From Clostridia bacterium (lineage in GTDB: Bacteria; Bacillota; DULZ01), in assembly GCA_012512955.1 (NCBI GenBank), contig JAAZDD010000037.1, forward strand, positions 1 to 41,638: a DNA stretch of 41,638 nucleotides. Direction: 5' to 3'. Position 1 is the stretch's first letter, and every line of letters starts with the position of its first letter. Of the stretch, positions 2,390 through 27,396 are shown piece after piece. The notes under the pieces are model-generated. The model had not been told where the DNA came from. It did no database searches and saw only the letters and a program-made list of their open reading frames with translations. The position numbers were made by a program, and so were the translations under genes.

Positions 2390-3898
2390 ATGAAACAAAG
2401 TTTTTTTCGCGGTGCATTAATTTTAATGATTGGTTCAGTATTGTCAAGGATTCTGGGTTTTATTTACCGCATTTGCATAGTCCGCTTGCTGGGACCGGAA
2501 GGTATCGGTTTGTATGAGATGGTTTTTCCCGCGATCACCCTAATTTTGGTATTGACTACAGCAGGTATTCCGGTAGCCCTAGCCAAACTGATTGCAGGCG
2601 ACTTTGCCCGGGGCCATCGTAGGAAAGTAGCGGCAATTTTGCGAGTATCCCTCCTAATCTTGGTAGCCACAGGCATTTTGTTTCCTGCCGTGTTGATATA
2701 CACAGCACCCTGGCTGGTGCCTAAAGTTTTCAGTGATCCCAGGGCTTATTGGCCTTTTATGCATTTAATTCCTGCATTGTTCTTTGTGTCAATCAGCTCT
2801 GTTTTACGAGGGTATTTTCAAGGCATCAACTTTATGCTTCCTTTGGCTACAGGACAGTTGCTGGAACAGGTGATCCGCATTGTGATGGGAATAGGGCTTG
2901 TTTCCTGGTTGTTGCCTTATGGAGTGGAATTTGGAGCTGCCGGCTTGTCCCTGGCGGTGGTGGTTGGGGAGGCAGCCGGTCTTGCGGTACTGGTGGTCTA
3001 CTTTTGGGGCACACGCCTTCAAGTTACATCTCCCAAATCCCAGACAGAGCCAGCCATTGAAGGCCGGTTAATCATCCGGGAGTTACTGTCTTTGGCCACA
3101 CCGGTAACCATGTCCAGGGTTGTTTCCAGCCTGATGCTCAGTGCCAAAGCCATCGTCATCCCTAACCGGTTACAATTGGCCGGGGCAACTTTAGAGCAAG
3201 CAACCCAATTATACGGTATTCTTTCCGGGATGGCCATGTCGCTGGTGAATTTTCCTTCGGTAATCACCGGTTCCCTGAGTAGCGTGTTGTTGCCGGCAAC
3301 GGCTGCGGCGATAGCCAAAAAAGAATTCAAGGCAGTTGAGCTGAGAATCAACCAGGCATTCAAGCTGACTGTATTAACTGCCCTGCCCTTCACCCTTTGG
3401 TTTATCCTTTTGGGAGAACCTTTGACACTGGCTTTTTTTAATAACCGGGAAGCAGCCATCCCTTTAAAAATACTGGCACCTGGCTGTGTTTTCTTTTATT
3501 TACAGCAGACCAGTTCCGGTATGCTTTACGGTATGGGCCAAATGAAGACCTTATTCATCAACTCCTTGATCGGTAACAGTGTTAGCCTGTTGGTAACTTA
3601 TGTGTTGACCGGAATGCCTGCCCTTGGTATCAAGGGGGCTGCTCTGGGAATCTTGGTCGGGACTTTGATCACCTGTATGTTGAACCTGGGCGCCCTATTT
3701 AAAACCACACCGGTTACATTACAGTTGTCAGGCTGGCTTCACCGGTCCCTTTTCGCCCTGGGAATAATGGCAATATTCATTCTATTGGCCGGAGGAAAAA
3801 TCCCCGTTCTTTTAACGGTCACGGCCTCGGGCAGTTGTTACGTCCTGAGTCTGTTTTTAACCGGTGGCTTAAGGCTAACGGACTTTCGCAAGAGTTAA
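2390..3898 (+). CDS. spoVB: Polysaccharide biosynthesis / stage V sporulation protein B-like flippase (MATE/MOP superfamily)
   Basis: MKQSFFRGALILMIGSVLSRILGFIYRICIVRLLGPEGIGLYEM..., multi-TM, typical SpoVB N-terminus. Confidence 0.85.
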   Translation: MKQSFFRGALILMIGSVLSRILGFIYRICIVRLLGPEGIGLYEMVFPAITLILVLTTAGIPVALAKLIAGDFARGHRRKVAAILRVSLLILVATGILFPAVLIYTAPWLVPKVFSDPRAYWPFMHLIPALFFVSISSVLRGYFQGINFMLPLATGQLLEQVIRIVMGIGLVSWLLPYGVEFGAAGLSLAVVVGEAAGLAVLVVYFWGTRLQVTSPKSQTEPAIEGRLIIRELLSLATPVTMSRVVSSLMLSAKAIVIPNRLQLAGATLEQATQLYGILSGMAMSLVNFPSVITGSLSSVLLPATAAAIAKKEFKAVELRINQAFKLTVLTALPFTLWFILLGEPLTLAFFNNREAAIPLKILAPGCVFFYLQQTSSGMLYGMGQMKTLFINSLIGNSVSLLVTYVLTGMPALGIKGAALGILVGTLITCMLNLGALFKTTPVTLQLSGWLHRSLFALGIMAIFILLAGGKIPVLLTVTASGSCYVLSLFLTGGLRLTDFRKS

Positions 3899-4062
3899 CT
3901 CCAAAAATTTCTTTGGGCAAGTTTGTTTAACTGGGCCAGTCGGCCATAATCCGTGAGATCATATTGTACCGGTGTGAGGGAAATATAGTTGTGAGCGACA
4001 GCCCAAACATCTGTCTCCGGTTCCGGAGTACCTTGGAGTATTCCCGACAGCCAGTAATAGCT
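3895..4062 (-). pseudogene. surE: Detached SurE C-terminus in the same frame after an in-frame TAA
   Basis: In-frame translation after TAA: SYYWLSGILQGTPEPETDVWAVAHNYISLTPVQYDLTDYGRLAQLNKLAQRNFWS*, matching the usual SurE C-terminus (DPRGxxYYW...TD..A...YISLTPL..DLT). Confidence 0.8.
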
Positions 4063-4662
4063 TTAGCCCCGGGGATCTTTTCTTTCTTCCACGCAATTTA
4101 TGTACCGGCGTGTACCCAGTTTAACAACCTGCACTCCCTTAATGTCTGAACGATCTACATCAGGCACATTAATATTCAGAAAGGTCTGTTCAGGCAGTGG
4201 TTCTTGGAGGAGCACCGGTATCAACTTGGTGGTGAAACTGGCTGCTACCGGAAAGAGCCCTTTGTTCCGGTAATCCAGGGAAACTGCTACTGATGGAATT
4301 CCATTGATAATAGCCTCCAAAGCGCCTGAGACGGTGCCGGAGTAGAGTACATCCGTGCCTAAATTTGCCCCTTTGTTTATGCCTGAGATCACCAGGTCCG
4401 GAGCCCGGTCCAGTAATTGCTCCAATGCCAGTTTGACACAATCGGCCGGTGTGCCGGAAATTGCATATCCCTGGGAACTGCCAAATCTTTTGGCTTCTAC
4501 CCGCAGGGGTTTATGCATCGTTATACCGTGTCCTGAAGCACTTCTTTCCCGATCAGGAGCCGCCAGAACCACTTCAGCCAGTGGCTCCAGGGCTTCCCGC
4601 AAGGATTGAATGCCGGGAGCGTCCAACCCGTCATCATTAGTAAGCAAAATCAGCATTTCCAC
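4063..4662 (-). CDS. surE: 5'/3'-nucleotidase SurE, prematurely terminated
   Basis: LLTNDDGLDAPGIQSLREAL...APDRERSASGHGIT...SGTPADCVKLAL...SGINKGANLGTDVLYSGTVSGA are SurE motifs. ORF stops at TAA (4063-4065) right after ERKDPRG. Start GTG 4662 or ATG 4656. Confidence 0.9.
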   Translation of the reverse strand: MEMLILLTNDDGLDAPGIQSLREALEPLAEVVLAAPDRERSASGHGITMHKPLRVEAKRFGSSQGYAISGTPADCVKLALEQLLDRAPDLVISGINKGANLGTDVLYSGTVSGALEAIINGIPSVAVSLDYRNKGLFPVAASFTTKLIPVLLQEPLPEQTFLNINVPDVDRSDIKGVQVVKLGTRRYINCVEERKDPRG

Positions 4663-20085: not shown

Positions 20086-20118
20086 AAAAAACATTATCAA
20101 GACAAGTCTTGATGATGT
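20086..20118 (-). terminator. Rho-independent terminator after the NERD-domain gene
   Basis: ATCAAGA-caag-TCTTGAT inside CATtATCAAGA...TCTTGATgATG, with an A-run at about 20083-20091 (T-run on the reverse strand). Confidence 0.75.
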
Positions 20119-20263
20119 TCAATAAAGCATAAGGCAATTCTTTTTATGGTATCCGGTGTCAATGCGGTATCCGTTGGGAGAGATTTGATATATTCGTTTA
20201 ATTTATCTTTTTTCAAAACGGTAAGATGGGGGTCCTGGCCTTCGATTATAGTTCGACTGTTGC
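20097..20263 (-). pseudogene. Out-of-frame C-terminal continuation of the NERD-domain protein
   Basis: -1 frame reads ...NSRTIIEGQDPHLTVLKKDKLNEYIKSLPTDTALTPDTIKRIALCFIEHHQDLS*, restoring VVMANSRTIIEGQDPHLTVL. Confidence 0.75.
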
Positions 20264-20941
20264 CATGACTACGATACTGTAAATGGGTATGGAAAATTCC
20301 GGAAAATGTTCTTTTAGGAAACTTTGGAGAATGATTTCATGTCGCCGGATCTGTGGTAAGGGACTGTCCATTCCTTCACGAACAATCTTATTTTGAGCCG
20401 CTTTTAGTACGGTCCAGTCTCCTTTTTCATCTATTAAAACAGCACCGTTGATGGTTTTTGTTTCCACATGGATTACTCCCGGCGGACCAATGACAAGATG
20501 ATCCAGTTGCTGGGTCTCGAAATCCTCCGTGGGCAAATAAATATTGTTTAAAGAAACGAAGTTTTTGGGTAACCAACCCAGAATATAGGCTACCTCCCTT
20601 TCTCCTTTCAGACCGGCTTCTAATTTATTTTTTTCTTTATGTAAAATAGCTAGTTGTCTTTGTAATTGGCTTTGCATTTCCTCTCTGTTCGGCTGGTATA
20701 AAACCAGATAAGCACAGGTAAACAAAAGAGAGAAAAACAGGGCCCCGGTAATGGCAATAGAAAAATCAATTAAGCCGTCAGATACGATTGCCAGTACAAG
20801 GAAGATTGCTGTAGTTGGCAAAGCAACTACCATATATATAAAAGGGAATTCTTTTTGATTTTTGATAGCGTCCAGTTCCTGTTGGTAATACTCTATTTTA
20901 GCATTGATATTCTCCAAAGGATTTTCCGGCAATTTCTGCAT
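20246..20941 (-). CDS. NERD (nuclease-related) domain membrane protein, frameshifted near its C-terminus
   Basis: Two TM segments then LKGEREVAYILGWLPKNFVSLNNIYLPTEDFETQQLDHLVIGPPGVIHVETKTINGAVLIDEKGDWTVL: NERD motifs. Ends abruptly at IYSIVVMATVEL*. Confidence 0.85.
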   Translation of the reverse strand: MQKLPENPLENINAKIEYYQQELDAIKNQKEFPFIYMVVALPTTAIFLVLAIVSDGLIDFSIAITGALFFSLLFTCAYLVLYQPNREEMQSQLQRQLAILHKEKNKLEAGLKGEREVAYILGWLPKNFVSLNNIYLPTEDFETQQLDHLVIGPPGVIHVETKTINGAVLIDEKGDWTVLKAAQNKIVREGMDSPLPQIRRHEIILQSFLKEHFPEFSIPIYSIVVMATVEL

Positions 20942-20967
20942 GCCAATTACTCCTTTTTGGCAACTGA

Positions 20968-25800: not shown

Positions 25801-27078
25801 TTAGACAACTTTTGTTTGCTGTTTCCCTCGAAGCAAATTTTCCAAATTGGCCAGCAGATTATACATTTCATAAGTTTTTTGCTGGTCGGTTTCCATGGCA
25901 ATCAAATGATTCATTTCCTGATAAATCCGCTGGGCGATAGCATAGAGATCATCTTTGGTAATTGTAGGCTGTTCAACCGGAGCGGTTTTCCAGGGAGTTA
26001 CTAGGTCATATTGCTCCAGGTATTTGGGTACGATAACCTCAGTGTTAAACTTTTCTTTGAGCACTCTGGCCAAATGTTGGGCAGAGTCCGGCTCTCCGTG
26101 GGTCACGAATATTTTTTGAGGTGGCTCTTTAAAATAAGAGATCCAATTGAGGATTTGGGCTTGATCTGCATGGGCTGAAAAACCTTCCAGGTTCACGATT
26201 TGAGCCCTGACTTGTATTTGCTCCCCGTGGATTCTGACCGTCTTTTCACCGTCAATCAACCGCCTGCCTAAAGTACCCTGGGCCTGATAACCGATAAAGA
26301 CGACTGTAGATTCCGGACGCCATAAATTATGCTTCAAATGGTGTTTAATACGGCCGGCATCTGCCATGCCGCTGGCGGAAATAATAATTGCTCCCTCTTT
26401 GATTTTATTAAGGGCCATGGATTCTTCTGCCGTACGACTGATTTGCAACCCTGGCAAGTATAAGGGACAGTTACCTTGAGAGGTTCTACGCAACTGCTTG
26501 TAATCTTCATCAAATAAGTGCTGATTGCGGCAAAAAATCTCTGTAGCGGTGATAGCCAGTGGGCTGTCGATATAGATATTTTGGCCGTCAATTTTTTTCT
26601 CCTTGATGAGAAGATGCAGGTTATACAATAAATCCTGGGTTCTTTCAATGGCAAAGGCCGGAATGATGACATTTCCACCTCGCCTAAAGGTGTCCTTAAT
26701 CACCTTGGCAAGAGCCTCCCGGCGGTTACCTGCCACTTTATGAAGGCGATCGCCATAGGTGGATTCCACCACCAGGTAGTGTGTGTGTTCAATGACTGTG
26801 GGATCGTTAGCCAATGGACGATCTACTGCTCCCAAGTCCCCGGAAAAGACAAATTTGGTAGTTCCTTCTTTAGTTTCCAGCCATAATTCTACAATGGCTG
26901 AGCCGAGAATGTGTCCTGCATCCCTAAAGCGAAGGGTAATGCCAGGGCGAACTTCCCAGAATTCTTCATAATGTACACCGATAAAATGCTGCAGGCAATC
27001 CTGGGCATCTTGGGCTGTATAAATAGGTTCCAATAACGGTAAGCCGGAACGCTGGTTTTTCCTGTTTTTCCGCTCCAC
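25801..27078 (-). CDS. MBL-fold/beta-CASP RNA-specificity hydrolase, C-terminal ORF of a split gene
   Basis: RFRDAGHILGSAIVELW...VFSGDLG...VESTYGDR...IPAFAIERTQDLLY...ISASGMADAGRIKHHLKHNL...GYQAQGTLGRRL...FSAHADQ...VTHGE. Confidence 0.9.
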   Translation of the reverse strand: MERKNRKNQRSGLPLLEPIYTAQDAQDCLQHFIGVHYEEFWEVRPGITLRFRDAGHILGSAIVELWLETKEGTTKFVFSGDLGAVDRPLANDPTVIEHTHYLVVESTYGDRLHKVAGNRREALAKVIKDTFRRGGNVIIPAFAIERTQDLLYNLHLLIKEKKIDGQNIYIDSPLAITATEIFCRNQHLFDEDYKQLRRTSQGNCPLYLPGLQISRTAEESMALNKIKEGAIIISASGMADAGRIKHHLKHNLWRPESTVVFIGYQAQGTLGRRLIDGEKTVRIHGEQIQVRAQIVNLEGFSAHADQAQILNWISYFKEPPQKIFVTHGEPDSAQHLARVLKEKFNTEVIVPKYLEQYDLVTPWKTAPVEQPTITKDDLYAIAQRIYQEMNHLIAMETDQQKTYEMYNLLANLENLLRGKQQTKVV

Positions 27079-27396
27079 TTACATTTCCTGGATGAAACCG
27101 CTGTCAGGTAAAACTGCTGTACATAATTCAGCGGTAGCAGTCGTAGCATAGACAGGTCCTTGGAAACCGAGTTTATACAATTTAGGGATTAAACCACAGT
27201 GATCAATATGGGCATGAGTTAAAATCATGAAGTCAATTTCGACCGGGTCAAAAGGAAAGGAGGAATAGTTTCGCTCCTTGACGGCTTTTGACCCTTGAAA
27301 CATCCCGCAGTCTATCAAAAACTTGTAGGTTCCGGTATCGAGCATGTAACAGGAACCGGTAACTGTCTCTGCTGCACCATAGAAGCTGATTTTCAA
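27079..27396 (-). CDS. MBL-fold/beta-CASP hydrolase, N-terminal ORF of the same split gene
   Basis: [35 protein letters not shown]...[16 protein letters not shown]; HxHxDH motif. Ends GFIQEM* with the next ORF in the same frame. TTG start. Confidence 0.88.

Follow-up and report, generated by a model that had tools for sequence, protein, structure and literature searches.

The surE gene at this locus is interrupted by an in-frame TAA beyond which the reading frame continues, and the question was whether this stop is an error of the sequence, a very recent nonsense mutation, or a site of readthrough that yields short and long forms of SurE, the three options offered by an earlier reading of the sequence alone (the sequence-only reading). 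The stretch of DNA analysed here (the window, 41,638 nucleotides) is contig 223 of a draft assembly of 2.04 Mb, which consists of 258 contigs and is 81% complete. The relatives used for comparison were a genome of the same genus (G001) and a genome of the same family (G002).

As the sequence-only reading had described, the surE frame ends in a stop directly after the conserved ERKDPRG motif and is then followed by 55 in-frame codons and a natural stop (Table 1); the interrupting codon is TAA on the minus strand. Translation of the minus strand from 4662 to 3895 gives VEMLILLTNDDG...VEERKDPRG, the internal stop, SYYWLSGILQGTPEPETDVWAVAHNYISLTPVQYDLTDYGRLAQLNKLAQRNFWS and the natural stop. Since SurE homologues start with MLILLTNDDG, the ATG at 4656 is more likely to be the initiation codon than the GTG at 4662. 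Counted from this ATG, the internal stop is codon 198, the short form has 197 amino acids and the full form 253. A MATE-type gene is convergent with surE, and the stop codons of the two genes overlap, as would be expected if surE were normal and of full length.

The protein obtained by reading through the internal stop contains the family-level SurE domain (Pfam, 219.6 bits, cut-off 22.1, E 3.9e-65). With residues 2-249 it matched the NCBIfam model PRK00346.2-2 (300.9 bits, cut-off 271, E 6.3e-90), and almost the entire length of the NCBIfam SurE models was covered. The Pfam and NCBIfam matches therefore assign the 55-codon tail to SurE. Solved SurE structures (e.g. 2wqk, 5ksq) could be aligned on both sides of the stop. 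The likeness to the SurE 5'/3'-nucleotidases (Pfam PF01975; NCBIfam TIGR00087; PDB 2wqk, 1ilv, 5ksq) thus extends over the full length and includes the NDDG motif, SGIN.G.NLG, DPRG.SYYW and ITP/LTPVQYDLT, whereas the in-frame TAA at codon 198 occurs in this assembly only. As assembled, the C-terminal part of the protein (tetramerization loop and C-terminal helix) is not uninterrupted: 55 residues are cut off by the stop, although the sequence coding for them is present downstream.

Table 1. Positions of surE, its internal stop and the other features discussed in the text (L numbers denote loci of the draft outside the window)
Feature	Position	Strand	Details
surE, upstream part	4063..4656	-	197 aa from ATG 4656, 199 aa from GTG 4662; ends with TAA 4065-4063; Pfam SurE E 3.9e-65
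In-frame TAA of surE	4063..4065	-	nearly all homologues have R, K or N, with AAG (Lys) in G001 and G002; homologue alignment
surE, tail	3895..4062	-	55 codons and natural TAA (3897-3895); YYW segment, C-terminal helix region; aligned to solved SurE structures
MATE-type gene	2390..3898		convergent with surE
beta-CASP metallo-beta-lactamase-fold nuclease gene	25801..27396	-	TAA 27081-27079 in conserved QEM-E-VERKNRK motif; Glu in relatives
NERD-type gene	20100..20956	-	frameshift near 20207-20264 (~20250); intact in G001 and G002
Single stops in dnaE, mfd, peptidylprolyl isomerase, purB, purF, PBP1A family, recQ family, pyrR, scpB and PucR-like genes	L241:396; L243:3721, 4688; L155:926, 2595; L128:2306; L160:2407; L247:15327; L234:6699; L120:3510	-; +; +; -; -; +; -; +	

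The comparison with close relatives that the sequence-only reading had called for was carried out. None of 109 aligned homologues, including those of the same genus and the same family, has a stop at this site; all have a sense codon, coding for R in 39, K in 36, N in 18 and for rare other residues in the rest. G001 and G002 both have AAG (Lys) in the sequence DPRGKSYYW. Of the proposed single substitution from AAA to TAA, the change of a single codon was borne out and AAA is possible, but the codon of the nearest relatives is AAG and not AAA. The tail is 67% identical to that of G001 and 62% identical to that of G002, which between them share 58%; there is therefore no evidence of decay downstream of the stop, in agreement with the sequence-only reading. 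In the homologue alignment this surE deviates in only two of 66 strongly conserved columns. The 55-codon tail is an ordinary, conserved part of SurE. A TAA was also flagged in the more distantly related surE of G044 (L108); this gene has AGA (Arg) at the site, and the flagged stop lies elsewhere in the match.

Within the window surE is not special. Two other genes that had escaped the sequence-only reading, a beta-CASP nuclease gene and a NERD-type gene (a family name given from reading the sequence and not from a family search), are also broken (Table 1). Two further candidates were rejected. An in-frame TAA seen in the beta-CASP gene of G001 is most likely the natural C-terminal stop of that gene, the site itself being GAA (Glu), and the messy frames at 41.4-41.6 kb belong to a tRNA cluster.

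The search was extended to 403 kb of the draft by a codon-usage screen, comparison with G001 and G002 stretches, and family searches. About 12 genes were found that contain exactly one internal stop each, with both flanks intact and conserved: surE, the beta-CASP gene and the genes in the last row of Table 1, in which the PucR-like name derives from sequence alone. The number is approximate, because these genes were hand-picked from 65 codon-usage candidates and the alignments; for only six of the 12 did the aligned set contain an ortholog. The 65 candidates consisted mostly of gene ends and of normal adjacent genes that share a frame. An internal TGA in prfB was likewise dismissed as the normal programmed frameshift site, which is present in G001 and G002 too. 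Approximately 3% of the sampled genes are hit, with one lesion apiece. Family-wide searches confirmed that dnaE (TAG), purB (TAG) and purF (TGA) are interrupted in this genome. G001 and G002 both have uninterrupted dnaE and purF genes. The purB gene of G002 is uninterrupted as well, and that of G001 is divided between two contigs.

The aligned genes of this genome, 111 kb in all, contained six nonsense codons and one frameshift, whereas in the 150 kb aligned for G001 and G002 none was judged genuine; the further stops listed in the relatives (11 in G001, 2 in G002) were discounted on visual inspection, the alignments being antisense or lying in leaders or at contig ends. If the rates were equal, the chance of finding all six nonsense codons in this genome would be approximately 0.006. 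Hand inspection of the same screens revealed no comparable cases in the two relatives, save two genes with selenocysteine-type TGA and a beta-helix gene that contains TAG twice. The former, both listed by the codon-usage screen of G002, are fdhA-like and hdrA-like genes whose in-frame TGA (L194:12829, plus strand, and L213:1450, minus strand) look like ordinary selenocysteine sites. The latter, also in G002, is a right-handed beta-helix-like gene with apparently two in-frame TAG codons (L200:11026 and 11677, plus strand), and may be a pseudogene or recoded. Lesions like that of surE thus occur in unrelated genes of this assembly, housekeeping genes among them, with none judged genuine in the aligned genes of the relatives, as expected of sequence errors.

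The 12 internal stops comprise six TAA, four TAG and two TGA. Random substitution acting on the codon usage of this genome would produce 41% TAA, 39% TAG and 20% TGA, that is 4.9, 4.7 and 2.4 of the 12, and the observed types are in this proportion, again as expected of errors. The residues lost at the stops differ from gene to gene (K, E, L or M, Q, W, G, R). Such a mixture of stop types and lost residues excludes the reassignment of a codon and is what random substitution of bases would give, at an implied rate of approximately 8e-4 per base.

Because single stops of this kind interrupt many unrelated housekeeping genes of the same draft, the surE TAA most likely reflects an erroneous base in an assembly of low quality, and we hold this explanation with fair, though not full, confidence. 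Random base substitutions across a poorly supported draft would have turned a sense codon of surE into TAA, and sequencing or consensus error would have scattered single stops over the assembly. The lesions resemble the point-error artefacts of draft and metagenome-derived assemblies in that they are single-base changes in unrelated genes, of random stop types, none common to the relatives, in a fragmented assembly; the difference is that here we infer the error origin, as opposed to real mutation, on grounds other than reads. A literature search on stray stops in draft genomes yielded nothing useful. The fragmentation and incompleteness of the assembly were counted in favour of base error, and the lack of a missense excess against it. 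Private amino-acid changes numbered 284 in this genome (22 radical, including 2 stops) vs 344 in G001 (31 radical), a weak, underpowered test in which only about 12 extra changes are predicted in the 20 kb compared.

The lack of a visible missense excess speaks for the second explanation, a genuine and very recent nonsense mutation, by which surE would be a new pseudogene coding for a 197-amino-acid fragment that stops 55 residues short, and the lineage or strain mixture would carry many fresh loss-of-function mutations. Such a product would retain the catalytic residues of the N-terminal part but would be missing the swapped C-terminal helix and the last portion of the tetramerization loop. 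The surE TAA is indeed a clean change of a single codon in undecayed surroundings, and the proteins hit include SurE, the beta-CASP nuclease, RecQ and Mfd. Many bacteria can do without these and similar proteins. However, dnaE, purB, purF and scpB are also among the roughly 3% of genes hit, and each gene carries one lesion, whereas among pseudogenes of mixed age some would be expected to have several. Nor did the same screens detect such a pattern in G001 and G002. A real mutation was therefore considered possible but clearly the less probable of the two.

Programmed readthrough of the surE stop, giving short and long SurE forms, is very improbable. The downstream frame is intact and conserved, and the short form would retain the catalytic residues (D8/D9 and the 39-51 loop region), which are encoded ahead of the stop (PMC3567009). 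However, a stop that is used for readthrough or recoding should be conserved at the same codon in relatives, and here all homologues have sense codons. UAA is read by both RF1 and RF2, and the genes of both are present; moreover, unrelated genes are similarly interrupted, by all three stops, and no tRNA with a TTA anticodon was found among the detected tRNAs. In Salmonella SurE the dimer is held by a swapped C-terminal helix (227-253) and the tetramerization loop (179-210), and mutants of the helix hinge are nearly inactive (PMC3567009). By analogy, a form ending at residue 197 would probably not work. Of the three options of the sequence-only reading, sequence error was thus supported by the similar single lesions throughout the genome, housekeeping genes included, and readthrough was not; its interpretation as a whole is partly supported.

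Internal TAA codons in several conserved genes could also point to reassignment of UAA to an amino acid, or to a suppressor tRNA that makes stops leaky throughout the genome. As in known stop-codon recoding (selenocysteine UGA, pyrrolysine UAG, suppressor tRNAs), the conserved frame runs on past the stop, but here the stop is unconserved and the lost residue varies from gene to gene. To our knowledge, there is no dedicated recoding system for UAA of the selenocysteine UGA or pyrrolysine UAG type. No single reassignment can account for internal stops of all three kinds in place of K, E, L, Q, W, G and R, and TAA is the stop codon most often used for normal termination, closing 97 of the 161 long frames that finish with a stop; on these grounds UAA reassignment was rejected. 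No TTA anticodon was found among the detected tRNAs (27 matches), although such a tRNA may be missing from a genome that is 81% complete. Both release factor genes are present, and the codons of G001 at the surE, beta-CASP, mfd and peptidylprolyl isomerase sites are sense codons. Overall, this explanation has very little probability. Equally far-fetched is the idea that the lesions are real and tolerated through unusually leaky termination, for example by a suppressor tRNA missing from the assembly, with surE and dnaE still giving full-length products.

Genome-wide base errors thus come first among the explanations, followed by a genuine and very recent nonsense mutation; neither programmed readthrough nor recoding of UAA is likely. 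Real and tolerated stops would imply a strikingly permissive translation termination, which nothing here favours. The draft appears to carry approximately one stray stop per 30-40 kb, and unless reads support it, no single interrupted gene of this draft should be taken for a pseudogene, for a recoded gene or for one that yields two protein forms. In the cell, surE is probably intact and codes for one ordinary SurE (5'/3'-nucleotidase) of approximately 253 amino acids.
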